The notes under the pieces: generated by a model
Seen by the model: the letters and a program-made list of their open reading frames with translations, nothing else
Told to the model about the DNA's origin: nothing
Databases searched by the model: none
In this document: one piece after another, positions 528-58,293 of the stretch
How positions within the stretch are numbered: position 1 is the stretch's first letter
Layout of the letters: every line of letters begins with the position of its first letter
NCBI GenBank assembly: GCA_003221695.1
Contig: QHSX01000041.1
Coordinates: 1 to 64,000 of the forward strand
DNA length: 64,000 nt
Reading direction: 5' to 3'
Source of the DNA: Candidatus Rokuibacteriota bacterium
Lineage (GTDB): Bacteria > Methylomirabilota > Methylomirabilia > Rokubacteriales > CSP1-6
Translations under genes and position numbers: made by a program

Positions 528-1352
528 ATGAACTACGCCCTGATCGCGCTCGGCATCACGCTGATCTTCGCGATCATGGGCGTCCTGAACTTCGCCCACG
601 GACAGATGTACGTCCTGGGCGGATTCGTCACCTACTACGTCTACGGCGTCTTCGGGCTCAACTACTTCGTCGCGCTGGCCGCGTCGGCCGTCACCGTCGC
701 GTGCGTCGGGCTCGTCTTCGAGCGATTCCTGTTCCGGCGCGTCCTGCGCATCACCACCCGCGAGGAGAGCACGATGCTGCTGGCGGCCGGCACGGCGCTG
801 CTGCTCGACAGCCTCGGCCTCGCCCTCTTCGGCGAGAAGCAGCGGGGTGTCGCCCCGGTCGTCGCCGGTGTCTACGAGATCTTCGGCGCCTTCGTGCCGG
901 CCTCGCGGGCGCTGATCTTCGTCCTCGCCGGGGGGCTCGTCGGGGCCCTGCTGCTCTTCATCCAGTACACGCGCCCGGGGCGCGCGCTCCGGGCCATCGC
1001 CCAGGACAAGGAGACCGCGGCCCTCCAGGGCGTCGACATCGACCGCTACTCGGCGCTCGGCTTCGCCCTCGGGGCGGCGCTCGCCGGGCTGGCGGGCGGC
1101 CTCCTCGTCACCGTGTTCGCCGTGAACGCGGGCGCCGGCACACCGATCTCGATCAAGGCGTTCATCATGATCATGATCGGCGGCGCGGGCGTTGTCTCCG
1201 GCGCCATCCTGGGCGCGTTCGTGCTCGGCTTCAGCGAGGCGCTCGGCTACTTCTTCATTCCGGGCTCGACGACCTACCTCATGATCCTGGTGGGCCTCAT
1301 CGTCTTCCTGATCTTCCGGCCGCAGGGGATCATGGGGAAACCGTGGGGTTGA
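528..1352 (+). CDS. livH: Branched-chain amino acid ABC transporter permease (LivH type)
   Basis: Inner-membrane permease of the BPD_transp_2 family with about eight hydrophobic segments. The LNFAHGQMYVLGGF motif near the N-terminus and the cytoplasmic loop GRALRAIAQDKETAALQG are typical of LivH. The first ATG is at 528, but the family-conserved N-terminal helix continues upstream in frame (EQVVVNGLILG encoded at 495-527) with no ATG, GTG or TTG. True initiation is therefore probably at ATA 492 or ATT 480, the latter overlapping the preceding stop. The annotated start is the first canonical one and probably removes about 12 residues. It pairs with the next gene, livM. Confidence 0.88.
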   Translation: MNYALIALGITLIFAIMGVLNFAHGQMYVLGGFVTYYVYGVFGLNYFVALAASAVTVACVGLVFERFLFRRVLRITTREESTMLLAAGTALLLDSLGLALFGEKQRGVAPVVAGVYEIFGAFVPASRALIFVLAGGLVGALLLFIQYTRPGRALRAIAQDKETAALQGVDIDRYSALGFALGAALAGLAGGLLVTVFAVNAGAGTPISIKAFIMIMIGGAGVVSGAILGAFVLGFSEALGYFFIPGSTTYLMILVGLIVFLIFRPQGIMGKPWG

Positions 1353-1368
1353 GCCGCGCCCCGGCGCC

Positions 1369-2343
1369 ATGAGGCTCAGGGTCGCCGCCGCCCTCGTGGG
1401 GCTCGCGCTCTATCTCGTGGTGGTCCCCTTCGTGTTCCGAGAGTCGCGCTACCTGCTCGGTATCCTGACGACCGCCTCCGTGCTCAGCCTCATCAGCCTC
1501 GGCGTCTGGCTCACGTTCGCGATCGGACGCATCAACATCGGCCAGGCCGCCTTCGCGCTCGTCGGAGGCTACACCACGGCGATCCTGTCGGTGAAGCTCG
1601 GGGTCTCGTTCTGGCTCTGCCTTCCGGCCTCCGGTCTGGCGGCGGCCCTCGTCGGGGCGGTGATCGGCTGGCCCATCCTCAGGCTGAAGGGCGTGTACTT
1701 CGCGATGATCACCCTGACCCTGAGCGAGGCGGCTCGACTGGCCGCCCTGAACGGCGGGACCATCACGCAGGGCGCCACCGGCATCCTGAACATCCCGTTG
1801 CCGGGTGAGGTGACGTTCGCCGGGGTCGTGCTCGTCCCCGCCTTCCGCGCGCTGAACGTGCACCTCGCGTTCTACTACCTGGCGGCGATCCTGCTCGTCC
1901 TCGGGCTGTTCACGGTCACGCGCATCGCCAGCTGCCGCCTGGGATGGATCTTCCGCTCTCTCAGGCAGGATGAGGCGCTCGCCGCCAGCATCGGCGTCAA
2001 CGTGGCGAAGTACCGGGTGCTCGCCTTCGCCCTCGGCTGCTTCTTCGCCGGCATCGCGGGGGCGTTCTTCACGGTGTCCCAGCAGAGCATCTATCCGTCG
2101 AGCTTCGGCGTGCCGGATTCCGTCTACTTCATGCTCTACTGCTTCCTCGGCGGGCTCTCGTACGTGTCCGGCCCCGTGGTCGGCGCCTTCGTCCTGTTCC
2201 TCGGCTTCGAGCTCCTCCACGGCCTGCGCGAGTACCAGATGCTGACGTACGCCGCGATCATGATCACGATGATGCTCTGGCTGCCCAACGGGCTCCTGAG
2301 CCTGCGGCTCCCCGCGCGACCAGGCATGAAGGCCGACGCATGA
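1369..2343 (+). CDS. livM: Branched-chain amino acid ABC transporter permease (LivM type)
   Basis: A 324-residue polytopic inner-membrane protein and the second permease of the Liv-type importer. INIGQAAFALVGGYTTAIL in the first third and the loop FRSLRQDEALAASIGVNVAK in the second half are the usual LivM signatures and contact sites for the ATPases. It starts 16 bp after livH, and its TGA overlaps the ATG of livG in an ATGA arrangement, which indicates translational coupling. Length and topology are normal for the family. Substrate is not deducible beyond an amino acid or a related small compound. Confidence 0.9.
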   Translation: MRLRVAAALVGLALYLVVVPFVFRESRYLLGILTTASVLSLISLGVWLTFAIGRINIGQAAFALVGGYTTAILSVKLGVSFWLCLPASGLAAALVGAVIGWPILRLKGVYFAMITLTLSEAARLAALNGGTITQGATGILNIPLPGEVTFAGVVLVPAFRALNVHLAFYYLAAILLVLGLFTVTRIASCRLGWIFRSLRQDEALAASIGVNVAKYRVLAFALGCFFAGIAGAFFTVSQQSIYPSSFGVPDSVYFMLYCFLGGLSYVSGPVVGAFVLFLGFELLHGLREYQMLTYAAIMITMMLWLPNGLLSLRLPARPGMKADA

Positions 2344-3116
2344 TCGTCATGGAGGTCCGAGACCTGACGAAGCGGTTCGGCGGCCTGGTGGCGGTCGACC
2401 ACGTGACGTTCGAGGCGAACGAGGGCGAGGTGCTCAGCATCATCGGGCCGAACGGCGCCGGCAAGAGCACCCTCTTCAAGCTGATCACCTCGTTCCTCCC
2501 GCGGACGGCCGGCCGCGTGATCTTCCAGGGCGAGGAGATCACGGGCCTCTCCGCCCACCTGGTGGCCCGCAAGGGGGTGGTCCGCACGTTCCAGGAGACG
2601 ACGATCTTCAAGGAGATGAGCGCCCTGGAGAACGTCGTCATCGCCCACCACCTGCGCGGGCGGGCGACCCCCGTCGGCCTCTTCCTCAATACCCGCGTGG
2701 CGCGCCAGGACGAGGCGACCTTCCGCGACAGCGCCGACGAGATCCTCGACTACCTCGGGCTCTCGCGGGTGAAGCACGAAGAGGCACGGCACCTGCCGCA
2801 CGGCCACCTGCGCGCCCTCGGCATCGCCATCGCGATGGCGTGCGACCCGAAGGTGCTCCTCCTCGACGAGCCCTTCTCGGGCATGAACCCGGAGGAGACG
2901 GACCGGATGGTGGAGATGGTGCGAGGCATCCGCGATCGGGGCGTCACCATCCTGCTCGTCGAGCACGACATGCGCGCCGTGATGCGCCTCAGCGATCGCA
3001 TCATCGTGCTCAACTTCGGCAGGAAGATCGCCGACGGCACACCGAGGGAGATCCAGAACGACGAGGCGGTGATCGAGGCCTACATCGGGCGCGAGGACGA
3101 CGAGCTCGGGATCTAG
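2340..3116 (+). CDS. livG: Branched-chain amino acid ABC transporter ATP-binding protein (LivG type)
   Basis: A 258-residue cytoplasmic ATPase that powers the LivHM permease. Walker A is GPNGAGKST at residues 36-44, Walker B is VLLLDEP followed by FSGMNPEE, and the H-loop is VEHDM. The ABC signature reads LPHGHLRALGIA, which departs from LSGGQ and also from the usual LivG form LPYGxQRRLEIA. ATG 2340 overlaps the livM stop; a second in-frame ATG at 2349 is an alternative start. LivG and LivF normally form a heterodimer, and livF follows after one base. Confidence 0.92.
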   Translation: MIVMEVRDLTKRFGGLVAVDHVTFEANEGEVLSIIGPNGAGKSTLFKLITSFLPRTAGRVIFQGEEITGLSAHLVARKGVVRTFQETTIFKEMSALENVVIAHHLRGRATPVGLFLNTRVARQDEATFRDSADEILDYLGLSRVKHEEARHLPHGHLRALGIAIAMACDPKVLLLDEPFSGMNPEETDRMVEMVRGIRDRGVTILLVEHDMRAVMRLSDRIIVLNFGRKIADGTPREIQNDEAVIEAYIGREDDELGI

Positions 3117-3117
3117 C

Positions 3118-3828
3118 ATGTACTTCGCCGTGCGCCACGTGAGCGTCTACTACGACAAGGTCCGGGCCGTCTCCGACATCTCGCTCGTCATGGACGCCGG
3201 CGACGTGATCGCGATCATCGGCGCCAACGGCGCGGGCAAGACGACCACGCTGCGCGCCGTGACCGGGCTCGCCCCGGTCGCCTCCGGCGAGATCTGGTTC
3301 GACGGCCATCGGATCGACCGCCTGCGCCCCGACCGGATCGTCGGCCTCGGCATCTCGATGGTTCCGGAGGGGCGCCATGTCTTTCCCTTCATGAGCGTCG
3401 GGGACAATCTCCTGATGGGCGCGTTCGCGCGGCGGGACCGACGCGCGATCGAGCAGGACGTCGAACGGGTCTTCGCGCGCTTTCCGCGCCTGAAGGAGCG
3501 CCGACGCCAGCAGGCAGGCACGCTGAGCGGCGGCGAGCAGCAGATGCTCGCCATCGGCCGCGCGCTCATGGCGCGCCCCAAGCTCTTGCTGATGGACGAG
3601 CCGTCCCTCGGGCTCGCGCCGCACCTGGTGCGCGAGATCGCCCGCGCGATCCTCGCCGTCAACCGGGAGGAGAAGGTGGCCGTCGTCCTCGTCGAGCAGA
3701 ACTCGCGGATGGCGCTCAAGGTCTCGACCCGCGCGTACGTCCTCGAAACGGGGCAGGTGGCGCTCGAGGGGCGCTCCGCAGACCTCCTGAACAACGAACA
3801 GGTCCGGAGACTCTATCTGGGCGGATAG
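3118..3828 (+). CDS. livF: Branched-chain amino acid ABC transporter ATP-binding protein (LivF type)
   Basis: A 236-residue ATPase, partner of LivG. Walker A is GANGAGKTT (residues 35-43), the signature is a canonical LSGGEQQML, and Walker B is LLLMDEPSLGLAP. VLVEQN has Gln in place of the switch His, as is usual in LivF. It starts one base after the livG stop. The strong LivF signature and the weakened LivG signature suggest two non-equivalent ATP sites. It completes an SBP-H-M-G-F importer. Confidence 0.93.
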   Translation: MYFAVRHVSVYYDKVRAVSDISLVMDAGDVIAIIGANGAGKTTTLRAVTGLAPVASGEIWFDGHRIDRLRPDRIVGLGISMVPEGRHVFPFMSVGDNLLMGAFARRDRRAIEQDVERVFARFPRLKERRRQQAGTLSGGEQQMLAIGRALMARPKLLLMDEPSLGLAPHLVREIARAILAVNREEKVAVVLVEQNSRMALKVSTRAYVLETGQVALEGRSADLLNNEQVRRLYLGG

Positions 3829-3831
3829 CTC

Positions 3832-4605
3832 ATGCCCGACGCTTTTTACGTCCCCGACGGCGACGCGTTTGTCGCCACCGTGCACACGCGCGGCCCGTGG
3901 AGCGCCACGCACCAGCACGGCGGGCCGCCCGCCGCGCTGTTGGCGCGTGCGCTCGAGGCGCAGGCCCCCGGCTTCGTGATCGCGCGGATCACCGTGGACT
4001 TCCTGCTGCCCGTGCCGATCGACCGGCTCGCCGTGCGCGTCGAGACCCTGCGCGCGGGCAGCAAGGTGCAGCGTCTCCTCGCGCGCCTGCTCCACGGCGA
4101 GCGCGTGATGGCCCAGGCCCTCGCCGCGCTCGTGCGCCCGGGCGCGGTCGCGATCGCGTCGCCGGCCAGTGACCCGGCCCTGCCACCGCCCGAGCACGGG
4201 CGCCCGTTCCAGTTTCCTTTCTTCCACGAGCCCGTCAGCTATCACGAGGCGATGGAGACGCGGCTCGTGCGCGGCGACTGGGGCAGCGGCCGCGTGGCCG
4301 CCTGGATGCGGCAGCGCGTGCCGCTCGTGGCCGGCACGCCGACCTCGCCGCTCGAGCGCGTGCTGGTCGCCGCCGACTCCGGCAGTGGCGTGAGCGCGGC
4401 CATCGAGCACAAGCGCTTCACCGCGATCAACGCCGACCTCACCGTGAGCGTGCACCGCCCGCTGGAAGGCGAGTGGGTCGGGATGGACTGCCTGTCGATC
4501 TACGAGCCGCACGGCGTCGGCCTCGCCGACACCCGCCTGCACGACGTGCGTGGTCCGATCGGCCGCGCGCTCCAGAGCCTCGTGGTGGAGGCGCGGTCTT
4601 CGTAA
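3832..4605 (+). CDS. Thioesterase family protein (double hotdog, acyl-CoA thioesterase-like)
   Basis: A 257-residue protein resembling the thioesterase-like superfamily (TesB-type double hotdog). The N-terminal hotdog holds THQHGGPPAALLARAL, the central helix with its HGG turn, followed by ITVDFLLPVPIDRL, the strand that usually follows. The C-terminal half has NADLTVSVHRPLEGEW and a final VVEARSS strand, consistent with a second hotdog. It begins 3 bp after livF, so it is probably co-transcribed. Known relatives hydrolyse acyl-CoA thioesters in the cytoplasm. Placement at the end of a liv operon suggests a role in degrading the imported compound through CoA esters, which is inference. Confidence 0.75.
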   Translation: MPDAFYVPDGDAFVATVHTRGPWSATHQHGGPPAALLARALEAQAPGFVIARITVDFLLPVPIDRLAVRVETLRAGSKVQRLLARLLHGERVMAQALAALVRPGAVAIASPASDPALPPPEHGRPFQFPFFHEPVSYHEAMETRLVRGDWGSGRVAAWMRQRVPLVAGTPTSPLERVLVAADSGSGVSAAIEHKRFTAINADLTVSVHRPLEGEWVGMDCLSIYEPHGVGLADTRLHDVRGPIGRALQSLVVEARSS

Positions 4606-4705: not shown

Positions 4706-5935
4706 ATGGAGATGAATCGGCGGGAGGCGCTGAAGGCGCTCGGGGCGGCGGTGGGAGCGGCGTTCGTCCCCGGCCGCGCCAGCGCCCAGAATGGTGAGAT
4801 TTCGGTCGGGAGTCTCCTCGACGGGACCGGCCCCATCAACATCTACGGGCTCCCTATGATCGACAGCACGAAGTTCGCCATCGACGACATCAACGCCCAG
4901 GGCGGCGTGCTCGGCCGCAAGCTGAGACTCGTCCAGCTCGACGCCCAGTCGAACAACCAGATCTACGCGGAGTACGCGACCAAGCTGCTCGTCGAGGATA
5001 AGGTCGCGGTGCTGATGGGCGGCATCACGAGCGCGTCCCGCGAAGCCGTCCGCCCGGTCGTGGGCAAGTACAAGCACGTCTACTTCTACAACGAGCAATA
5101 CGAGGGCGGCGTCTGCGACAAGCTCGTGTTCTGCACCGGCGTCACACCGGCCCAGCAGCTCGGCACGTTGATCCCCTGGGCGGTGAAGGAGTACGGCAAA
5201 AAGGTCTACACGCTCGCGGCCGACTATAACTACGGTCACATCTCAGCCGACTGGGTGAAGGTCTTCCTGAGAAAGGCCGGCGGCACGCTCGTGAACCAGG
5301 AGTTCATCCCGCTCGACGTCGTCAACTTCGACTCGGTGATCAAGCGGGTGGAAGGGGCGAAGCCCGACGTCGTGATGTCGCTCCTGGTCGGCGGCAATCA
5401 CATCGCGTTCTACCGGCAGTTCGCCGCCACCGGGCTGAAGGGAAAGATCCCGATCGTTTCGGCGACGTTCGGGCTCGGCAACGAGCAAGTGGTCCTCACC
5501 CCGGAGGAGGTCGAGGGGCTGGTGGTGATCTATCCCTACTTTCAGGAGCTCGAGAACGCCGTCAACCGGGAGTGGGTGCACCGCTGGCACCAGCGGTTCG
5601 GCGCGAACTACGCCTACATCACCGACTCGGCCTGCACCGTCTGGAACGGCTGGCACCTCTGGGCCACGGCGGTGAAGAAGGCAGGGTCGCTCGAGCGGGA
5701 CGCGGTCATCAAGGCGCTCGAGAGCGGCCTCACCTTCAAGTCGCCGGAGGGCGAGATCACGCTCAACCCCGAGAGCCATCACGTCGTGCACACGGTGCAC
5801 CTCGCCAAGGTGAACAAGCAGCGCGGCTTCTCGATTATCAAGACGTTCCCGAACGTCGCGCCCACGGACACGATGGAGGTGTGCGATCTGATCAAGAACC
5901 CGAATCAGGCAAAGCAGTACACGCCGAAGTTCTAG
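4706..5935 (+). CDS. Urea/short-chain amide-type ABC transporter substrate-binding protein
   Basis: A 409-residue Peripla_BP_5/6 protein of the UrtA/FmdD/AmiC group. The N-terminus carries a twin-arginine-like signal (NRREALKALG, then a hydrophobic stretch ending ASAQ). The motif GGITSASREAVRPVV followed by YFYNEQYEGG is typical of amide and urea binders, as are ADYNYGH and the hinge at VVMSLLVGGN. GGGAG precedes the ATG by about seven bases. It heads an operon of two permeases, UrtD- and UrtE-like ATPases, a GatC-like protein and an amidase, so an amide or ureido compound is the likely ligand. The exact substrate is unknown. Confidence 0.88.
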   Translation: MEMNRREALKALGAAVGAAFVPGRASAQNGEISVGSLLDGTGPINIYGLPMIDSTKFAIDDINAQGGVLGRKLRLVQLDAQSNNQIYAEYATKLLVEDKVAVLMGGITSASREAVRPVVGKYKHVYFYNEQYEGGVCDKLVFCTGVTPAQQLGTLIPWAVKEYGKKVYTLAADYNYGHISADWVKVFLRKAGGTLVNQEFIPLDVVNFDSVIKRVEGAKPDVVMSLLVGGNHIAFYRQFAATGLKGKIPIVSATFGLGNEQVVLTPEEVEGLVVIYPYFQELENAVNREWVHRWHQRFGANYAYITDSACTVWNGWHLWATAVKKAGSLERDAVIKALESGLTFKSPEGEITLNPESHHVVHTVHLAKVNKQRGFSIIKTFPNVAPTDTMEVCDLIKNPNQAKQYTPKF

Positions 5936-5991: not shown

Positions 5992-6852
5992 ATGGATTTC
6001 GTCGCAGTCACCGCGTTTGGCATCGTGTACACGATCGCCACGCTCATCCTCCTGGCCCTCGGTCTCGCCGTGATCTTCGGGATGATGGGCGTCATCAACC
6101 TGGCGCAGGCCGAGTTCCTCATGGTCGGCGCCTACACGGTGTTGATCGTGACGGCCCACGGCGCGAGCGTCTGGGTCGGGATCGCGGTGGCGCCGGTCGT
6201 CGTGGGCCTCCTGGGCCTCGTGATCGAGCGGACGATCATCCGCTTCCTCTATGGCCGCATCCTCGATACGATGCTCGCGACCTGGGGGCTCAGCCTGGGT
6301 CTGGTCGGGCTCGTCACCCTCGTGTTCGGGCCGACGACCGAGGGGATCGCCACGCCGTTGGGCCACGTCACCGTCGGCGAGTACCGACTCTCCGTCTACA
6401 GCGTCTTCGTCATCCTGATGGCGTTCGCGGTTCTCGGGCTGACGTATGGCCTGTTCAACTACACGCGCTTCGGCCTGGTGGCGCGCGCGACCATGCAGAA
6501 CCCCAACATGGTCTCCGCGCTCGGCGTGAACCCCGCGCGGGTGTACATGGGGACCTTTGCGTTCGGCGCCGCCCTGGCCGGCCTCGGCGGTGGAGTGATG
6601 GCGCCCCTCACGGGCGTCGTGCCGACGCTCGGCCTGGCCTTCATCGCCAAGATCTTCATCACGGTGATCGTCGGCGGGCCCGTGATCCTCCTGGGCACGA
6701 CGACGGCGGGCGTGGTGCTCGGCCTCGTCGAGAGCCTCGTCTCCTACGGTTCGACGCCCATCTACGGTCAGGTCGCCATGCTCGCCTTCGCGATCATCCT
6801 TCTCCGGCTCCTCCCCCAGGGCATCTCCGGCTTCTGGCGCCGAGGCGTCTAG
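5992..6852 (+). CDS. Urea/amide-type ABC transporter permease (UrtB/LivH family)
   Basis: A 286-residue BPD_transp_2 permease with about eight membrane segments. MMGVINLAQAEFLMVGAY matches the conserved N-terminal motif, and the loop RFGLVARATMQNPNMVSALG matches the cytoplasmic coupling loop. The frame is open further upstream, but ATG 5992 (MDFVAVTAFG) gives a family-like N-terminus and follows the binding-protein gene by 56 bp. The stop overlaps the GTG of the next permease by one base. Role: one half of the inner-membrane channel for the compound captured by the preceding binding protein. Confidence 0.87.
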   Translation: MDFVAVTAFGIVYTIATLILLALGLAVIFGMMGVINLAQAEFLMVGAYTVLIVTAHGASVWVGIAVAPVVVGLLGLVIERTIIRFLYGRILDTMLATWGLSLGLVGLVTLVFGPTTEGIATPLGHVTVGEYRLSVYSVFVILMAFAVLGLTYGLFNYTRFGLVARATMQNPNMVSALGVNPARVYMGTFAFGAALAGLGGGVMAPLTGVVPTLGLAFIAKIFITVIVGGPVILLGTTTAGVVLGLVESLVSYGSTPIYGQVAMLAFAIILLRLLPQGISGFWRRGV

Positions 6853-7853
6853 TGACAGCGTGGGCGCTGTGGGCCGTCGCGGTCGCTGTGGTGGCGGCGC
6901 TGCCGGCCGTGCTCTCGCCCTTCCAGATCGTTCAGCTCACCGTGTTCATGATCTACAGTCTGCTCGCGCTGAGCCTCGACCTGATCTGGGGCTTTGGCGG
7001 GATCCTTTCGTTTGGACAGGCGGCGTTCTTCGGCGTGGGCGGCTACGTCTACGGGATCGTGGGCATCAACTCGGGCAGCACGACGTTGGCGCTCATAGCG
7101 GGTGTCGCTGGCGCCGCCGGGCTCGCGGCACTGCTCGGCTACTTCACGTTCTACGGCCGGGTCGGCTCGATGTATTTTGCCGTCATCACGCTGACGGTGA
7201 CGCTGATCCTGCATCAGGTGATGGGCACGACCGCCGACCCCAGGTATGCCGTGGGCCAGGCCCGCCTCGGTGGCTACAACGGGATGACGAATATCCCGTC
7301 GCTGGCGCTGGAGGTGCCCGGCCGCGCTCCACTCACGCTCGACCCCGTCCAATTGTTCTACGTCGTGGGCGGCCTGCTTCTTCTGGTCCTCGCCCTGACC
7401 CGCGCCCTCGTTCGGGGGTCCTTCGGTCGCGTGCTCGCCGCGATTCGGGAGGACGAGCTGCGGACGGAGCTGCTCGGGTACGATCCCCGCTGGCGTAAGC
7501 TCGTGACGTTCGCGATCTCCGGCTCCATCGCCGGCCTCGCCGGGGGCCTCTTCGCGGGCTGGGGCAATTTTATGAACCCGCAGGTCTTCAGCATGTTCCA
7601 GTCGGCGCTGGTGGTCATCTGGGTGATGGTCGGCGGCCGGTCCACGCTGTACGGGGCCGTGGTGGGCACGCTCGTCGTCCAGTCCCTCACGAATTACCTG
7701 GGCACCGCGTCGGTCACCTACACGACCGTCGCGCTCGGCACGGCGCTGGTGGTGATCGTCCTGCTCTTTCCGCGGGGCCTGGTGCCGGCCATCGAGGGCG
7801 CCGTCCGGCGAGTCAGCGGGCGGCGGCCCCCAGCCCCGGAATTCGCGCGATGA
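6852..7853 (+). CDS. Urea/amide-type ABC transporter permease (UrtC/LivM family)
   Basis: A 333-residue LivM/UrtC-like inner-membrane protein starting with GTG that shares one base with the previous stop. GGILSFGQAAFFGVGGYVYG is the conserved N-terminal motif, and the loop VLAAIREDELRTELLGYDPR is the conserved cytoplasmic coupling segment. The last codons overlap the ATG of the UrtD-like gene by four bases, indicating translational coupling. It forms the channel together with the upstream permease. Confidence 0.88.
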   Translation: MTAWALWAVAVAVVAALPAVLSPFQIVQLTVFMIYSLLALSLDLIWGFGGILSFGQAAFFGVGGYVYGIVGINSGSTTLALIAGVAGAAGLAALLGYFTFYGRVGSMYFAVITLTVTLILHQVMGTTADPRYAVGQARLGGYNGMTNIPSLALEVPGRAPLTLDPVQLFYVVGGLLLLVLALTRALVRGSFGRVLAAIREDELRTELLGYDPRWRKLVTFAISGSIAGLAGGLFAGWGNFMNPQVFSMFQSALVVIWVMVGGRSTLYGAVVGTLVVQSLTNYLGTASVTYTTVALGTALVVIVLLFPRGLVPAIEGAVRRVSGRRPPAPEFAR

Positions 7854-8575
7854 ATGACGTCGTGCTTCAGACGCGGGGTCTCGTGAAGGAGTTCGGTGGG
7901 CTGCGGGCCGTCAACTCCCTCGACTTCACCCTGAGGCGCGGCGAACTGCGCTGCGTGATCGGCCCCAACGGCGCCGGCAAGAGCACGCTCTTCAAACTCC
8001 TCACCGGCCAACTCAAACCTACCGCGGGGACGATCCACTTCAAGGGTCTCGACGTCACTCGTCTCCTGCCCCACGAGATCGCGCGAGCCGGGATCGGGAT
8101 CAAGTTCCAGGTGCCGCGCGTCTACGATAGCCTGTCGGTGACCGAGAACCTCTGGCTCTCCGCGCGATCCCGCCATGGGGCCGCCGCCGGCGCGATCGTC
8201 GACCGGGTCCTCGCCGAGGTCGGCCTCGTCGAGCGCCGGACCAGCCCGGTGGGGCACCTCTCGCACGGCGATCGACAGTGGGTGGAAATCGGCATGGTGC
8301 TGACGTCCGACCCCGACCTGGTTCTCCTCGACGAGCCCACCGCCGGCATGACCCATGCCGAGGCGCGACGCACAGCCGACCTCGTGCGCGAGATCAACCG
8401 GCGGGCGACGCTGATCGTGGTCGAGCACGACATGGACTTCGTGCGAAGCATCGCGGGATACGTCACCGTGCTCCACAGAGGCGCCGTGCTTGCCGAAGGA
8501 ACCATGGACGAGATCCGAGCGAACGACGTCGTCCGCGACATCTATCTGGGGAAGCGGCCGCGTGCTCGACGTTGA
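7850..8575 (+). CDS. urtD: Urea/amide ABC transporter ATP-binding protein, UrtD-like
   Basis: A 241-residue ATPase with Walker A GPNGAGKST, signature region LSHGDRQWVEIGM, Walker B LVLLDEPTAGM and H-loop VVEHDM. The LSHGxxQWxEIGM form is characteristic of UrtD rather than LivG, which points to a urea or short-chain amide importer. Its 3' end overlaps the start of the UrtE-like gene by 14 bp. Cytoplasmic, working as a heterodimer with the next gene product. No urease genes are in view, so urea itself is not proven. Confidence 0.88.
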   Translation: MNDVVLQTRGLVKEFGGLRAVNSLDFTLRRGELRCVIGPNGAGKSTLFKLLTGQLKPTAGTIHFKGLDVTRLLPHEIARAGIGIKFQVPRVYDSLSVTENLWLSARSRHGAAAGAIVDRVLAEVGLVERRTSPVGHLSHGDRQWVEIGMVLTSDPDLVLLDEPTAGMTHAEARRTADLVREINRRATLIVVEHDMDFVRSIAGYVTVLHRGAVLAEGTMDEIRANDVVRDIYLGKRPRARR

Positions 8576-9251
8576 GGGCCTCCACGCGCGGTATGGGCAG
8601 GTGCCGGTGCTGAACGGCGTCTCGCTCCGGGTGGGGGCGGCCGAGCGCGTCGTGATTATCGGACGAAACGGCGCGGGCAAGACGACCCTGCTGCGCGCGC
8701 TCATGGGTTTCCTCCGCTCCCGCGAGGGGCACATCCGCTGGCGAGACGTCGACATCACGCACCTGCCACCCTACCGACGGGCCCGGCTCGGCCTCGGGTA
8801 CGTTCCCCAGGGGCGTGAGATCTTTCCCGCCCTCACCGTCCGCGAAAACCTCCGGATGGGGGCCCTCTCCGGCGACGGATCGCGCTTCGACGAGCTGCTG
8901 CAGATCTTCCCGCGCCTGGGCGAGCGCCTCGGCCAGCGCGGCGGTAGCCTCTCGGGGGGTGAACAGCAGATCCTCGCCATCGCGCGCGCCCTCATGGGCG
9001 ACCCGAAGCTCCTGCTGCTCGACGAGCCGACCGAGGGGATCCAACCCTCGATCGTCGACGAGATCCTCGAGCAGCTTCTCGGGATCAACGCACGATTCGG
9101 GGTGACGATGATCCTCGTCGAGCAGAATGTGGACTTCGCCTCCGCGTTCGCGCAGCGCGCCTATACGATGCTGAAGGGAGAGATCACCGAGGAGTTGAGG
9201 CCGGAGGCCCTTTACGACCCGCGCGTCATCGCCGACTATCTTGGCGTCTGA
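8562..9251 (+). CDS. urtE: Urea/amide ABC transporter ATP-binding protein, UrtE-like
   Basis: A 229-residue ATPase read from GTG 8562 (VLDVEGLHARYG), which overlaps the preceding gene and matches the family N-terminus; the frame is open further upstream but that stretch is not family-like. Walker A is GRNGAGKTT, YVPQGREIFP follows, the signature is LSGGEQQILAIARAL, and Walker B runs into LLLLDEPTEGIQPS. The DEPTEGIQPS string is typical of UrtE. It is the last transporter gene before the GatC-like/amidase pair, 33 bp downstream. Confidence 0.9.
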   Translation: MLDVEGLHARYGQVPVLNGVSLRVGAAERVVIIGRNGAGKTTLLRALMGFLRSREGHIRWRDVDITHLPPYRRARLGLGYVPQGREIFPALTVRENLRMGALSGDGSRFDELLQIFPRLGERLGQRGGSLSGGEQQILAIARALMGDPKLLLLDEPTEGIQPSIVDEILEQLLGINARFGVTMILVEQNVDFASAFAQRAYTMLKGEITEELRPEALYDPRVIADYLGV

Positions 9252-9284: not shown

Positions 9285-9485
9285 ATGAAGAGCGACGACC
9301 CCGTCACCAGGGAAACCGTCGAGCGCCTCTGCGCGCTGGCCGACCTGCCGCTCGCACCAGAACGTCGCGCCAGGCTGGTGCCCATGCTTTCCGGCCTCAT
9401 CGCGGCCGCCAACGAGCTGAACCGCAAGATGGCGGCCGCGGCGTACCGGTCGATCTTGCCGATCCTGCGATTCCCCGAGCGATAG
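9285..9485 (+). CDS. AtzG/GatC-like small amidase partner protein
   Basis: A 66-residue protein behind a strong ribosome-binding site (GGGAGGGGAGG). The segment VERLCALADLPLAPERRARL, then a helix ending AANELNRKM, resembles the AtzG (DUF4089) and GatC small subunits, which wrap around and stabilise amidase-signature enzymes. Ten bases separate it from the amidase gene, whose own start has AGGAGGT. AtzG is known to be needed for AtzE activity, and the same pairing is likely here. Assignment rests on pattern, size and position, as the sequence is too short for certainty. Confidence 0.65.
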   Translation: MKSDDPVTRETVERLCALADLPLAPERRARLVPMLSGLIAAANELNRKMAAAAYRSILPILRFPER

Positions 9486-9495
9486 GAGGTACGTC

Positions 9496-10911
9496 ATGGC
9501 ACAGGGAAACCTGCTGGACCTGACGATCATCGAGGCCGCGGCACAGCTCGAGGGGCGCCGGCTCTCCCCGGTGGAGCTCACGGAGGCGATGCTTCAGCGG
9601 ATCGCCAGCGTCGACAAGCAGATCCGAGCGTACATCACCGTCTGTGATGCGCAGGCGCGTGAGGTGGCGCGGGCCGCCGAGCGCATGATCCAGGCGGGGT
9701 ACTACCTCGGCCCCCTCCACGGGATTCCGGTCGCGCTCAAGGACAACATCTACACGCGCGACGTCCGCACGACGGCCGGGTCGAAAATCCTGGCGGACTT
9801 TGTTCCGGCCGAGGACGCGACCGTGGCGGCGCGGCTGAAGCGCGCCGGCGCCATCATCATCGGCAAGACGAACATGCACGAATTCGCCTGGGGTGGCACG
9901 ACCGACAACCCGCACCATGGCACCTGCCGCAACCCCTGGAACCCCGAGCGCTTCCCCGCCGGCTCGAGCGGCGGCTCGGGCGCGGCGGTGGCGGCGCGCA
10001 CCTGCCTCGGCGCGCTCGGGACGGATACGGGCGGCTCGATCCGGTTGCCGTCGTCGGTGAACGGAATCGTCGGAATCCGCCCGACTATCGGCCGCGTGAG
10101 CAACTACAACGTCGTGCCCCTGGCGTGGACGATGGACACCGTCTCGCCGATGACGCGCACGGTCGAGGATTGCGTGGTCATGTTCGAGATCATTGCGGGC
10201 TACGACCCCTTCGACGACCATTCTGCGCAAGTTCCCCTGGCGGACTACCGGGCGGAGCTTGCCCGCCCGGTGCGCGGCCTCCGCGTCGGGCTCATCCGGG
10301 ACTACTCGCTGAGCCACCTACAGAAGGCGGTCGGCGACGCGGTCCGGGGCGCGCTGAAGACGCTCGAAGGGCTCGGCGCCCAGGTCGAGGAGATCGCGAT
10401 GCCGTCGATCCACGGCAACATCTCCGCTCAGCTCACGATCGAGTCCTGCGAGCCGAGCGCCTACCACCAAGAGTGGCTCCGCACGCGCGCCGCCGACTAC
10501 GGTGAGGACGTGCGGACGTTGCTGGAGTCGGGCGAGATGTATCTGGCCACCCACTACATCCAGGCCCAGCGGTATCGGAGCCTGCTGCGGAAGGAGTTCC
10601 TCGAGGGGTTCAAGCGGGTCGACGTCTTCGTCACGCCGACGCTCCCGTTTACCGCCACACCCTGCGGCGCCACCGAGGTCGTGATCGAGGGGAACCGCAA
10701 AGAGGACATGCTGTCGGCCATCATGCAGTTCACCGGGGTGCCGAGTCTCGCGGGGCTGCCCGCTCTGTCGCTTCCAGTGGGCTTCGACCCCGATGGCCTG
10801 CCCGTCGGAATGCAGGTGATCGGACGGCCCTTCGACGAGGGCCTCCTGTTCGGGGTCGGTCACGCCTATCAGCGGGTCACCGACTGGCACACGAGGTCGC
10901 CGCGACTCTAG
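9496..10911 (+). CDS. Amidase-signature hydrolase (AtzE/GatA-like)
   Basis: A 471-residue amidase-signature enzyme. The Ser-cisSer-Lys triad is intact: Lys82 in VALKDN, Ser157/158 in PAGSSGGSGAA, and nucleophile Ser181 in GTDTGGSIR. Such enzymes hydrolyse linear amides, biuret-type compounds or, in GatA, glutamine. The AtzG-like neighbour and the urea/amide importer upstream favour a small amide or carboxybiuret-like substrate over tRNA amidation, and no gatB is present. It is the last gene of the operon, and its TAG lies within the CTAG that also holds the stop of the converging ureohydrolase gene. Confidence 0.9.
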   Translation: MAQGNLLDLTIIEAAAQLEGRRLSPVELTEAMLQRIASVDKQIRAYITVCDAQAREVARAAERMIQAGYYLGPLHGIPVALKDNIYTRDVRTTAGSKILADFVPAEDATVAARLKRAGAIIIGKTNMHEFAWGGTTDNPHHGTCRNPWNPERFPAGSSGGSGAAVAARTCLGALGTDTGGSIRLPSSVNGIVGIRPTIGRVSNYNVVPLAWTMDTVSPMTRTVEDCVVMFEIIAGYDPFDDHSAQVPLADYRAELARPVRGLRVGLIRDYSLSHLQKAVGDAVRGALKTLEGLGAQVEEIAMPSIHGNISAQLTIESCEPSAYHQEWLRTRAADYGEDVRTLLESGEMYLATHYIQAQRYRSLLRKEFLEGFKRVDVFVTPTLPFTATPCGATEVVIEGNRKEDMLSAIMQFTGVPSLAGLPALSLPVGFDPDGLPVGMQVIGRPFDEGLLFGVGHAYQRVTDWHTRSPRL

Positions 10912-34372: not shown

Positions 34373-35965
34373 TCAGGTCTTTGGGCCGCCTCTGGCGGGC
34401 GTGCTGATCAGCGCGGCCCAGTCCACCGACTGCTGGTAGGTGTGGGCGGCGCGGAACAGCACGTCCTCCCTGAAGTGCGGCGCCACGAGCATCAGGCCGA
34501 TGGGCAACCCGTCCGACTTCCCGCAAGGGATGCTGATGGCGGGATGCCCCGTGTAGTTGAAGGGGCAGGTGTTGGCGATGACCGGCGCTAGGTCCATGCC
34601 GAGCTTGCCACCGAACAGGGTGTGCTCGAGCGCCTCCTCGTAGTTCATGGGTTCGCGCCAGCGGGGAGCACGCAGGGGCACGGTGGGCATGGCCAGGAGA
34701 TCGACGCTGGCCAGGACGCGGTCGTACTGCGCGACGAACGTGGGACGGACGTTCTGCGCCCTGGCGTAGAGCCGCCCGCCGTAGTGCTGCTGCAAGAAGT
34801 GGCCCTGCATCAGGTTGAGCTTGAGATTTGGCGAGAACTCTCGCCCGTGGCTCTGCTTGAGGCGACCGAAGATCGAGATGAACGAGGCCGGGTAGTACGT
34901 CCTGGCGAACGAGCCTCCGAAGTTCGTGTCGTACATCCGCTTGCCGCCTTCCAGGTAAATGGGCAGGAGGGCGAGGGGCGCCCGCGTGTGGAGCGGCACG
35001 GAGACGCTCTCGGTCCGCGCGCCCTTCCGCTCGAGCACGTGGATCGCTTCGCGCACGCACTCGTCCACGCTCCGGTCGCCGCCCTCGACGCCGAACCCTT
35101 CCGCCAGGATCCCGATCCTGAGCCCGCCGGCGCCGCGGGACAGGGCGTCGGTGTACGCGGGGACGCTCGCCGGGACGTGAGCCTGGCGCGGGTCGTCCCC
35201 ATCGCTCCCGGCGACGCACGCGAGCGCCGTCGCCACGTCTTCCACCGTTCGGGCCATGGGCCCCACGTAGTCGATGGTCGGCTCCAGGCCGAACACCCCG
35301 GAGTGGGGTACGAGGCCGTGCGTGGGCATGAGACCCACGATCCCGCACCAGGCGGCGGGGATGCGGATGGAGCCGCCCTGATCGCCGCCGAACGCGACGT
35401 CCACTTCTCCACCGGCGACGGCCGCGGCGGAGCCCGAGGACGACCCGCCCGTCACATGCTCTCTGTTGTGGGGGTTCAAGGGGCGCCCGTAGTCGCCGAC
35501 ACCGGAGAGCCCCGGCCCGCCCCAGGAGAACTCCTCCATCTTGAGCTTGCCGACGATCGTGCCGCCGGCGTCGAGAAGCCGCGTCACGATCGTGGCGTCG
35601 AAGTCCGGCACGTAGCCGTCCATGAGATGCGAGCCGAACGTCAGGGGCACACCGGCGACGCTGATGTGGTCCTTGAGCCCGATGGTCTTGCCCCGCAGCG
35701 GGCCCTGGTCCGCGCCCGCGACCCGGCACTTCCTGATGAAAACGTTCAAGGGGTCCTCGTGCTCCGTCGGCCGGTAGCCCGGATCACGATCCGTGAAGCG
35801 GAGCGGCGGGCGATGCTCCTCGACGCGCAGCTCGTTGAACACGTCGAGCGCGTCGATGGTGGCCATCATCCGCGAGTGCATGATCCGCGCCTCGGTGGAC
35901 GTGAGATCGAGGCCGAGGGCCTCGCCGTACGCCTTCACCTCGTCGACGTCGGGTCGCCTGAGCAT
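34373..35965 (-). CDS. Amidase-signature hydrolase
   Basis: A 530-residue amidase-signature enzyme, longer than the other two in the window because of an N-terminal helical extension (residues 1-85). The triad is intact: Lys98 in IGLKDH, Ser175/176 in GGSSSGSA and nucleophile Ser199 in GGDQGGSIR. GGGAGGACACGA precedes the ATG. Unlike the other two it has no GatC-like partner gene. It is divergent from a peptide-type importer operon across 82 bp and is followed by the NRDE gene. Substrate unknown. Confidence 0.88.
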   Translation of the reverse strand: MLRRPDVDEVKAYGEALGLDLTSTEARIMHSRMMATIDALDVFNELRVEEHRPPLRFTDRDPGYRPTEHEDPLNVFIRKCRVAGADQGPLRGKTIGLKDHISVAGVPLTFGSHLMDGYVPDFDATIVTRLLDAGGTIVGKLKMEEFSWGGPGLSGVGDYGRPLNPHNREHVTGGSSSGSAAAVAGGEVDVAFGGDQGGSIRIPAAWCGIVGLMPTHGLVPHSGVFGLEPTIDYVGPMARTVEDVATALACVAGSDGDDPRQAHVPASVPAYTDALSRGAGGLRIGILAEGFGVEGGDRSVDECVREAIHVLERKGARTESVSVPLHTRAPLALLPIYLEGGKRMYDTNFGGSFARTYYPASFISIFGRLKQSHGREFSPNLKLNLMQGHFLQQHYGGRLYARAQNVRPTFVAQYDRVLASVDLLAMPTVPLRAPRWREPMNYEEALEHTLFGGKLGMDLAPVIANTCPFNYTGHPAISIPCGKSDGLPIGLMLVAPHFREDVLFRAAHTYQQSVDWAALISTPARGGPKT

Positions 35966-56682: not shown

Positions 56683-56693
56683 CCCTCGGGTCA
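56680..56693. other. Palindrome joining two convergent stop codons
   Basis: TGACCCTCGGGTCA contains the hyuB TGA at its left end and, on the other strand, the amidase TGA at its right end, with six complementary bases on each side of a TC centre. The genes are only eight bases apart. It could form a small hairpin in either transcript. Confidence 0.4.
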
Positions 56694-58106
56694 GAGACCT
56701 CCGGGGAGCCGGGCCGTCCATCCGCTCGCCTGTTCGTAGGCGTAGGCGACCCGCAGGACCTTCGCGTCTGCGAACGCCCGGCCGTGGACCATCAGGCCCA
56801 CGGGCAGCCCGGCCCGCGTGAAGCCGCAGGGGACGCTGCACGCGGGCTCGCCGGTCAGGTTGGCGACACACGTGAGGCGCGCGCCCACGTCGAGCACCGA
56901 GACCGTGCGGCTCTTCAGGGGAACCTCGAGTCGCCCGATCGGGGTCGCGGGGAGCGGCGTCGCCGGTGATACGAGGACGTCCACGCGGCGGAACACCTCG
57001 CTCAGCGAGTGACGGATGCGGGCGCGCACCCGCTGCGCCTGCAGGTAGTCCGTCGCCAAATAGAGGAGCGCGCCCTTCAGGAGCCCGCCGACGTCAGCCC
57101 CGTAGTCCTGTGGGCGCGTGAGGAGCCACTCGCGGTGGTAGTGCGCGGCCTCCGCCCACGCGACGACAAAGCAGGTGTCGAGCGCGGCCTCGACTCCGGG
57201 GATCTTGACCTCGACCACCGACGCGCCGAGCTTCCGGAGCTCGTCGATCGCCGCCCGCACCAGGCGCTCGACCTCGGGGTCGATCACGTCGAAGTAGTAG
57301 TGCGACGGCACGCCGACGCGGACGCCCTCGAGGTCGGGCCGGAGCGCCCGCTGGAGACGCGGGAGTCTGACGCGCGCCGACGAGGGATCGCGGGCGTCGT
57401 GGCCAGCGATCGCCTGGAGCACGACCGCGGCGTCGGCGACCGTGCGGGTCATGGGGCCACCGTGGTCGAGGGACCAGCTCTCCGGGAGGATCCCCGTGCG
57501 GGGAACGAGTCCGTAGGTCGGCTTGTGGCCGACGATGCCGCAGAAGGAGGCGGGGATCCTGATCGACCCGCCCGTGTCGCTGCCCAGCGACGCCAGGCCG
57601 AGGCCGGCCGCGACGGCTGCGGCCGATCCCCCCGACGACCCGCCCGGGATGTATCCGAGCTTCCACGGGTTCTGGCATGTTCCGAAGTGCGGGTTGTCGC
57701 TCGTCACGCCCGCGGCGAACTCGTGGAGGTTCGTCTTGCCGACGAGAACGGCGCCCGCCTCGGCCAGCCGCGCCGTTGCGGTGGCGTCGGCGCTCGGGAC
57801 GAAGTCGCCGAGGATCCGCGACCCCGCGGTCGTGCGGATGCCCCTGGTGCAGTAGATGTCCTTGAGCGTGACGGGGATGCCGTGGAGCGGGCCCCGGTAG
57901 GCGCGCTTTGCGATCTCGCGGTCCGCCCGGCGCGCCTGCGCCAGGGCGAGGTCGGCGGTCACGGTGATGAAGGCCTTCAGCGTGCCGTCGAGCTGCTGGA
58001 TCCGGTCGAGGCAGGCGCGCGTCAGCTCCATCGACGAGAGCTTCCGGGCGCGCAGCAGCCGCCCCGCGCCCGTGATCGTGAGGCTCCGCAGGTCGTCAGG
58101 ACTCAT
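56691..58106 (-). CDS. Amidase-signature hydrolase (AtzE/GatA-like)
   Basis: A 471-residue amidase-signature enzyme with the triad Lys82 (VTLKDI), Ser157/158 (GGSSGGSAAA) and nucleophile Ser181 (GSDTGGSIR). It has the same length and the same motif positions as the amidase at 9496-10911, so the two are probably paralogues of one subgroup. Its ATG overlaps the end of a GatC-like gene by 11 bp. It is the last gene of an operon with a complete Dpp/Opp-type importer. Substrate could be an imported amide or amidated peptide. Confidence 0.9.
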   Translation of the reverse strand: MSPDDLRSLTITGAGRLLRARKLSSMELTRACLDRIQQLDGTLKAFITVTADLALAQARRADREIAKRAYRGPLHGIPVTLKDIYCTRGIRTTAGSRILGDFVPSADATATARLAEAGAVLVGKTNLHEFAAGVTSDNPHFGTCQNPWKLGYIPGGSSGGSAAAVAAGLGLASLGSDTGGSIRIPASFCGIVGHKPTYGLVPRTGILPESWSLDHGGPMTRTVADAAVVLQAIAGHDARDPSSARVRLPRLQRALRPDLEGVRVGVPSHYYFDVIDPEVERLVRAAIDELRKLGASVVEVKIPGVEAALDTCFVVAWAEAAHYHREWLLTRPQDYGADVGGLLKGALLYLATDYLQAQRVRARIRHSLSEVFRRVDVLVSPATPLPATPIGRLEVPLKSRTVSVLDVGARLTCVANLTGEPACSVPCGFTRAGLPVGLMVHGRAFADAKVLRVAYAYEQASGWTARLPGGL

Positions 58107-58293
58107 GGCTCATGGGGTGGAGAAAGTCGAACTCGAATGACCCGACGTCCATCGCGTAAAGCCGCTCGACGCGCCGGCGAAAGGCCGCGAAGACCTCGGC
58201 GAGCTCGGTGTCCCGTGTCCTGTCGGCGCGGAGCTCCGACCACTCGGCGAGGACCCGCGCGACGTCGGGGGTGATCGGAGACGAGTCACTCAT
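58096..58293 (-). CDS. GatC/AtzG-like small amidase partner protein
   Basis: A 65-residue protein from ATG 58293, overlapping the end of the OppF-like gene by eight bases and the start of the amidase by 11. TPDVARVLAEWSEL, then AFRRRVERLYAMDVGSFEFD resembles the GatC pattern of a helical N-terminus followed by a segment around VExLxxxD and an extended tail. Despite little direct identity it mirrors the 66-residue protein that precedes the amidase at 9496. Probable stabilising subunit; tentative because of its size. Confidence 0.55.
   Translation of the reverse strand: MSDSSPITPDVARVLAEWSELRADRTRDTELAEVFAAFRRRVERLYAMDVGSFEFDFLHPMSHES

Follow-up and report, generated by a model that had tools for sequence, protein, structure and literature searches.

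Directly ahead of an amidase gene in a Candidatus Rokuibacteriota genome lies an open reading frame (ORF) of only 66 codons. The question raised by this locus is whether the small protein is a subunit of the amidase and, if so, to which families and which kind of pathway the pair belongs. The initial annotation had described the two proteins as AtzG-like and AtzE-like, and had suggested that the same two-subunit enzyme might be used here in a different amide pathway. We analyzed the window (64,000 nucleotides, part of contig C85 of its genome), together with the rest of the genome and related loci. Kinship and gene pairing lend good support to the core idea of a putative small helper that assists an amidase of some other amide pathway; the family names proved wrong in detail, the observation itself being real.

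Gene order at the locus and recurrence of the pair

The small ORF and the amidase gene were confirmed at the positions given in Table 1, with the spacing of ten bases originally described, and an AGGAGG sequence precedes the amidase start. The gaps across the Urt-like genes, the small gene and the amidase gene are short or negative, consistent with transcription of the entire run as a single unit. The top NCBIfam match of each of the five Urt-like proteins was a urea-transporter model, and the mention of a urea/amide importer in the initial annotation holds to this extent; all five scored below the curated cut-offs (374.6 versus 494.8 for the UrtA-like protein and 256.3 versus 285.8 for the UrtE-like protein). 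Elsewhere in the genome, two strong matches to the urease alpha domain (PF00449) were recorded, at C15:114135-114497 (195.6 bits) and C1:17019-17369 (138.8 bits), and the organism may therefore use urea itself.

Table 1. Positions of the principal features of the window, with the basis of each assignment.
Feature	Position	Strand	Basis and remarks
UrtA-like substrate-binding protein	4706-5935	+	Pfam/NCBIfam; Tat-signal match below its cut-off
UrtB-like permease	5992-6852	+	Pfam/NCBIfam
UrtC-like permease	6852-7853	+	Pfam/NCBIfam
UrtD-like ATPase	7850-8575	+	Pfam/NCBIfam
UrtE-like ATPase	8565-9251	+	Pfam/NCBIfam; 33 bases from its end to the small gene
Predicted 66-aa small subunit of the GatC/AtzG superfamily, new family	9285-9485	+	ORF, profile, AF2 model
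Amidase-signature enzyme, 471 aa, GatA-like, own clade	9496-10911	+	ORF, Pfam, NCBIfam, tree
Amidase with N-terminal hairpin	34373-35965	-	GatC-like profile when pooled with seven similar proteins

A second ABC operon, LivHMGF-looking by eye, occupies positions 528-3825, just 5' of the Urt-like operon, and is followed by an acyl-CoA-thioesterase-like gene (3832-4605). On the 3' side of the amidase gene, the minus strand carries a member of the arginase/agmatinase family and a gene for a spermidine/putrescine-type permease (Pfam, NCBIfam). Of the 23 loci described below, only the two nearest also showed the arginase match: in L044 it lies at the contig end, and in L045 it flanks the operon on its opposite side. 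The permease match was seen at none of the 23.

The closest loci to the window come from Candidatus Rokuibacteriota MAGs, with 88-98% identity in the shared genes. A search for the small family in 95 genomes of the phylum gave strong matches (E < 1e-30) in 10 genomes and three weak matches (E > 0.001). An amidase search in 56 genomes of the bacterial family, the genome itself included, with E-values up to 1e-200, a cut-off that misses amidase fragments, gave nine positive genomes, all with the small gene; in the tenth genome with a small gene (G008), the contig ends within the amidase. Contigs were also scanned with two peptides (ANEL[SN]RKM and [IV][LV]PI[LTV]RFPE), and members lacking them are therefore missed, the conservation of these motifs being partly a product of selection. 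The 23 loci recovered comprise nine from Rokubacteria, which come from the same genomes as above and add no fresh evidence, one from Rubrobacter, one from Chloroflexi, five from Variovorax and seven from other Beta- and Gammaproteobacteria.

An amidase frame follows the small gene at all 23 loci and is intact (469-475 aa) at 20, the exceptions being L049 (cut by the contig end), L058 (broken) and L052 (split). The two genes overlap or are separated by no more than 11 nt at 21 of the 23 loci; the others are L052, with its split frame, and L065, where the spacing of 91 nt depends on the start chosen. In L058, from a Betaproteobacterial MAG, the amidase frame (2212-2529) breaks after about 106 aa, through either error or decay. 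Homologs 35-91% identical (range over the 23 homologs aligned) are present in several phyla, each directly 5' of a related amidase frame, and the small ORF is therefore a real gene. This co-occurrence makes it very probable that the small ORF encodes a subunit of the neighboring amidase. The distances between small proteins and those between amidases are correlated (r = 0.93, 21 loci), a value not counted as evidence because shared descent alone explains it. In codon comparisons, protein-altering changes were about as frequent as silent changes in the small gene, whose short length allows no firm conclusion, and changes lay mostly at third positions in the amidase gene, a result that carries no weight in the case.

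The link to the importer is also recurrent. Between two and five of the five Urt-like genes, recognized by similarity to those of the window, were present in the fetched stretch at 18 of the 23 loci, and none was present in that of L047, L049, L053, L058 and L062, two of these contigs being only 3 and 10 kb long. They lie upstream on the same strand at nine loci (L044-L046, L050, L057 and L063-L066), downstream on the opposite strand at three (L048, L051 and L052) and downstream on the same strand at six (L054-L056 and L059-L061). The occurrence of the same partners in differing arrangements argues for a functional association rather than descent alone. Other recurrent neighbors were grouped by blastp (at least 35% identity), and one representative per group was scanned with Pfam. 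They include a PF03069 acetamidase/formamidase-family gene (eight loci; the protein examined scored 81.4, far below the FmdA cut-off of 500), two groups of AraC-type regulators (six and two loci), an isochorismatase-like hydrolase (two loci), an amidase of the 3a1i type (four loci) and a second, adjoining amidase (six loci). To judge from these assignments, the neighbors are the gene company of amide or ureide use, from which no single substrate follows. AMP-binding acyl-CoA-ligase-like genes were also seen close to the pair in L053 (Rubrobacter) and L057 (Chloroflexi); L053 also has a NicO nickel-transporter-like gene.

Family membership of the small protein and of the amidase

The 66-residue protein did not match the AtzG-like model PF13318 (curated cut-off 24 bits), and neither did any of 10 homologs at E-values up to 10; searching the entire genome with this profile returned no match. 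The positive controls behaved as expected, with 36.2 bits for the AtzG of pADP-1 and matches for all five AtzG-like proteins of relatives. The GatC model PF02686 (cut-off 23 bits) also left the small protein unmatched, its one match in the genome being the canonical GatC on contig C52. Pfam otherwise gave only two meaningless sub-threshold matches for the small protein and nothing better than E = 0.09 for 10 members of its family, and NCBIfam gave none for the small protein. It was therefore ruled out that this protein is AtzG proper or GatC proper. The string LPLAPERRARL, put forward as an AtzG pattern, is indeed present, but it is not diagnostic of AtzG, because the AtzG of pADP-1 carries GIPLEPARARAV at that place.

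The AtzG identification thus failed the profile search, yet the protein is kin to AtzG and GatC by profile comparison and fold. A profile of the small family (24 sequences) was compared by hhalign, with 100 column shuffles per comparison, with alignments of AtzG (14 of 15 loci plus pADP-1) and GatC (21 of 30 loci, after a motif filter). It scored 41.1 against AtzG (best shuffle 16.6) and 26.1 against GatC (best shuffle 16.5), the accepted kinship between AtzG and GatC giving 21.1 (best shuffle 17.4) as a benchmark. These similarities beyond the shuffled controls place the family in the GatC/AtzG superfamily. The AF2 model (pLDDT 86) has helices at residues 9-18 and 25-50, followed by an extended tail that contains P59 and F63. 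In a Foldseek search of 350,542 PDB chains, the best eight matches were seven chains from GatCAB, GatCA or transamidosome entries, called GatC by chain and length, and the AtzG chain 6c62_C, with weak E-values of 0.08 to 1.8, none below 0.05. When 64 Foldseek chains were realigned with VIA-align, the top eight places still went to GatC and AtzG (Z 4.8-6.3), and histone folds reached at most 4.4; for a two-helix protein, Z values of 5-6 barely exceed histone folds, and the tool warns that such an arrangement may simply be common. The helix-helix-tail fold of GatC and AtzG was recovered, at weak E-values and modest Z. The additional C-terminal part of the canonical GatC of this genome (99 aa) is absent. 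On the basis of profile comparison and the predicted model, we place the small protein in the GatC/AtzG superfamily, within which it represents a distinct family that has no model.

The amidase belongs to the amidase signature family (PF01425, 424.6 bits for a cut-off of 27). K82, S157, S158 and S181 do not vary among the 21 orthologs aligned, and K82, S157 and S181 are the presumed catalytic residues. The description of the enzyme as AtzE-like did not stand: it scored 324.5 and 333.9 against the AtzE models TIGR02715 and PRK09201 (cut-offs 425.75 and 461), whereas a real AtzE reached 771.3 and 668.1. In a tree of 48 amidases, the 22 orthologs (including that of the window) formed one clade and three AtzE another, each with 100/100 support; the short amidase frames of L049 and L058 were left out, and two of the five AtzE-like Rokubacterial loci were used (L019 and L024). 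The topology uniting the amidase clade with AtzE was rejected (p-AU 0.0129), which is moderate evidence, because the tree has long branches. The cut-offs and the tree rule out AtzE proper, and the score of 361.7 against the GatA model TIGR00132, for a cut-off of 481.1, rules out GatA proper. The structural model of the amidase (pLDDT 68) carries no weight in the case.

Other genomes of this bacterial family do encode AtzG-like proteins: of 94 genomes surveyed in the phylum, 14 exceeded the PF13318 cut-off, the genome studied here being negative. An ORF directly follows the AtzG-like gene at the five such loci examined, and those of L019 and L024 group with AtzE in the tree. By manual comparison, there was no overlap between the 10 genomes with the small family and the 14 with AtzG.

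GatC-like partners of other amidases

With the window amidase as the query, 19 amidase frames were found in the genome. Six of the others are at least 39% identical to it, and each has a short ORF ending about 25 nt or less from the estimated start, some of these ORFs having been taken from a chosen internal start. One is the canonical GatC (C52), those on C104 and C50 are GatC/AtzG-like well beyond shuffles, that at C103 is marginal, and the profile of that at C35 was no better than shuffles. The remaining amidase, C85:58k (56691-58106, minus strand; 47% identical to the first), is preceded by an overlapping 65-aa ORF (58096-58293, minus strand), which beat shuffles only against AtzG, over 10 columns, and not against GatC. 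These two genes stand behind ABC transporter genes.

For the 12 amidases of lower identity, no separate GatC-like gene was seen by eye, and the one candidate tested by profile failed. Four of them have an N-terminal extension: C85:34-36k, in the window, C85:65k, C85:118k and C29. The profile of this hairpin, built from these four and four amidases of the other loci, scored 29.2 against GatC, 25.2 against AtzG and 20.0 against the family of the window, the best of 60 shuffles reaching 17.7, 15.1 and 14.7, respectively. The L048 amidase of the hairpin type matches the solved structures 3a1i and 3a1k from residue 9 onward. These belong to a Rhodococcus amidase (PRK07235 type in NCBIfam), presumably of strain N-771, which resembles the system studied here in its GatC-like hairpin but has it fused to the amidase, whereas the 66-residue protein is separate. 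Among plasmid loci, the short genes adjoining amidases in Aminobacter exceeded shuffles (L094, upstream; L093, downstream), the short ORF upstream from the amidase in Rhodococcus gordoniae (L095) did not, and no small gene was seen by eye in the stretch before the L092 amidase.

The presence of a small ORF, mapped as a label on the tree, required three changes, for a minimum of five in 200 shuffles (25 rows, with the orthologs and AtzE collapsed to one row each and the four fused rows scored as lacking it); this count is weak, because rows were marked by the position of the small ORF rather than by homology, doubtful ones included. We tentatively suggest, as a possibility that could well prove mistaken, that the GatC-like module is a general and mostly unannotated partner of one large amidase-signature clade, retained or taken up on several occasions outside translation, either as separate subunit families (AtzG, that of the 66-residue protein and two or more others in this genome) or as an N-terminal fusion of the 3a1i type. 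A mutant GatC-GatA fusion has been argued to be functional in Mycobacterium smegmatis (PMC7541841), and the descent of diverse enzymes from GatA has been called formally possible (PMC12283126). Neither the small family with its importer link nor GatC-like N-terminal domains of such amidases were found described in the literature searched, most subscription papers lying outside its scope.

Proposed role of the pair and competing explanations

Our favored reading, which we consider likely, is that a GatC-like scaffold and a GatA-like amidase act together on an imported amide. The 66-residue protein would be the non-catalytic small subunit of the adjoining amidase, a shortened scaffold of the GatC type, without the C-terminal part of GatC, with its two helices and extended tail packed on the amidase core in a physical complex, and the enzyme might need it for solubility or activity. 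The Ser-cisSer-Lys triad of the amidase would hydrolyze a small amide or ureido compound, with the release of ammonia, and the UrtABCDE-like transporter of the same gene run would bring in this substrate, importer and amidase thus presumably having it in common.

According to PMC6219798, AtzG is non-catalytic, AtzE is insoluble without it, and AtzEG is thought to have descended from GatCA; the same source describes more than 30 atzG-atzE-atzH clusters, only rarely accompanied by atzD or atzF and in some cases beside ABC transporters, so that AtzGE-type pairs serving other amide pathways have already been published. The pair shares with AtzG-AtzE of Pseudomonas sp. ADP (1-carboxybiuret hydrolase, PDB 6c62) a small GatC-like gene just 5' of an amidase-signature enzyme, and the small proteins of the two systems are related by profile and fold. 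The pair differs in that the small protein lies outside PF13318 and has a P-x3-F tail where AtzG has EPAPxF, the amidase falls in a separate clade, a Urt-like importer lies alongside, and no atzD, atzF or atzH was seen adjoining the pair. The proposal of a different pathway with the same two-subunit enzyme is thus sustained by the kinship of the small subunit and the co-occurrence of the genes, but not as regards identity with AtzEG, both proteins lying outside those families. With GatC-GatA of GatCAB, the pair shares a two-helix scaffold with an amidase and identical triad residues; it differs in the length of the small protein (66 versus 99 aa for the GatC of this genome), in its scores below the GatA and GatC cut-offs and in the presence of a canonical GatCA elsewhere in the genome. 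HpxX-HpxY, the oxalurate amidohydrolase of purine breakdown, is another AtzGE-type pair outside cyanuric acid breakdown, likened here by description. HpxY is named in PMC12625717, which reports a GatA-like amidohydrolase, distinct from AtzE, beside biuH in ammonia-oxidizing archaea, with allophanate as the proposed substrate. This archaeal enzyme is, similarly, a GatA-derived amidase close to organic-nitrogen genes; unlike the pair, it is presented without mention of a small partner in the accessible text of that paper.

Alternatively, the small protein might help the amidase to fold, or regulate it, without being a stoichiometric subunit, and the amidase would then work alone. A GatC-like part, separate or fused, was not found, or was weak or unsupported, for 11 of the 19 amidase frames of the genome, which favors such a role; the fold class that the protein shares with GatC and AtzG, both structural subunits, and the regularity of the pairing make it unlikely. 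Still less probable is a diverged AtzEG that works with an AtzD homolog from another part of the genome. The statement that there is no other atz gene is true for the neighborhood read, but contig C1 encodes an AtzD/TrzD-family protein (L151:3411-4574; 486.9 for an NCBIfam cyanuric acid amidohydrolase cut-off of 360), which could be a cyanuric acid hydrolase or a barbiturase, and Arg361 of the amidase is common to all three AtzE rows, although also to GatA and most others. Against this, the amidase lies outside the AtzE clade (p-AU 0.013 for a joint clade) and below the AtzE cut-offs, profile searches of the genome found no AtzG and AtzH only under its cut-off, and the AtzD gene is on a different contig, beside what looks by eye like a xanthine dehydrogenase frame.

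We give very little credence to a paralogous GatCA serving tRNA-dependent amidation, even though the top-scoring match of the amidase in the PDB is GatA (4wj3) and the small protein can be aligned with GatC. This genome has its canonical GatC and GatA on contig C52, the GatA cut-off was not reached, and the gene company of the amidase is an importer. The position of the glutamine-contact Asp in the GatA of this genome, presumed from the yeast residue, lies opposite Ala408 of the amidase in the phmmer alignment to solved GatA. It faces a gap when the amidase is aligned pairwise with the genome's own GatA by blastp or MAFFT, and it pairs with Asp404 in the multiple alignment. In yeast, this residue is D418 (PMC4027206). 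The alignments thus disagree, and the amidase probably lacks this Asp, a point on which our argument does not depend.

Under our preferred reading of a GatC-like scaffold with a GatA-like amidase, the helper in this soil bacterium is in all probability a constant component of an enzyme releasing nitrogen from amides, and similar pairs recur in distant bacteria. Small scaffold genes of this kind escape Pfam and NCBIfam models and are therefore easily missed, and they may decide the folding of the amidase. If GatC-like modules are as general as tentatively suggested above, some catabolic amidases found to be insoluble or inactive alone may merely be missing theirs. If the proposed role is correct, this would be a further GatC-derived subunit family for nitrogen scavenging, across several phyla, and orphan amidases could be screened for a short ORF just upstream.
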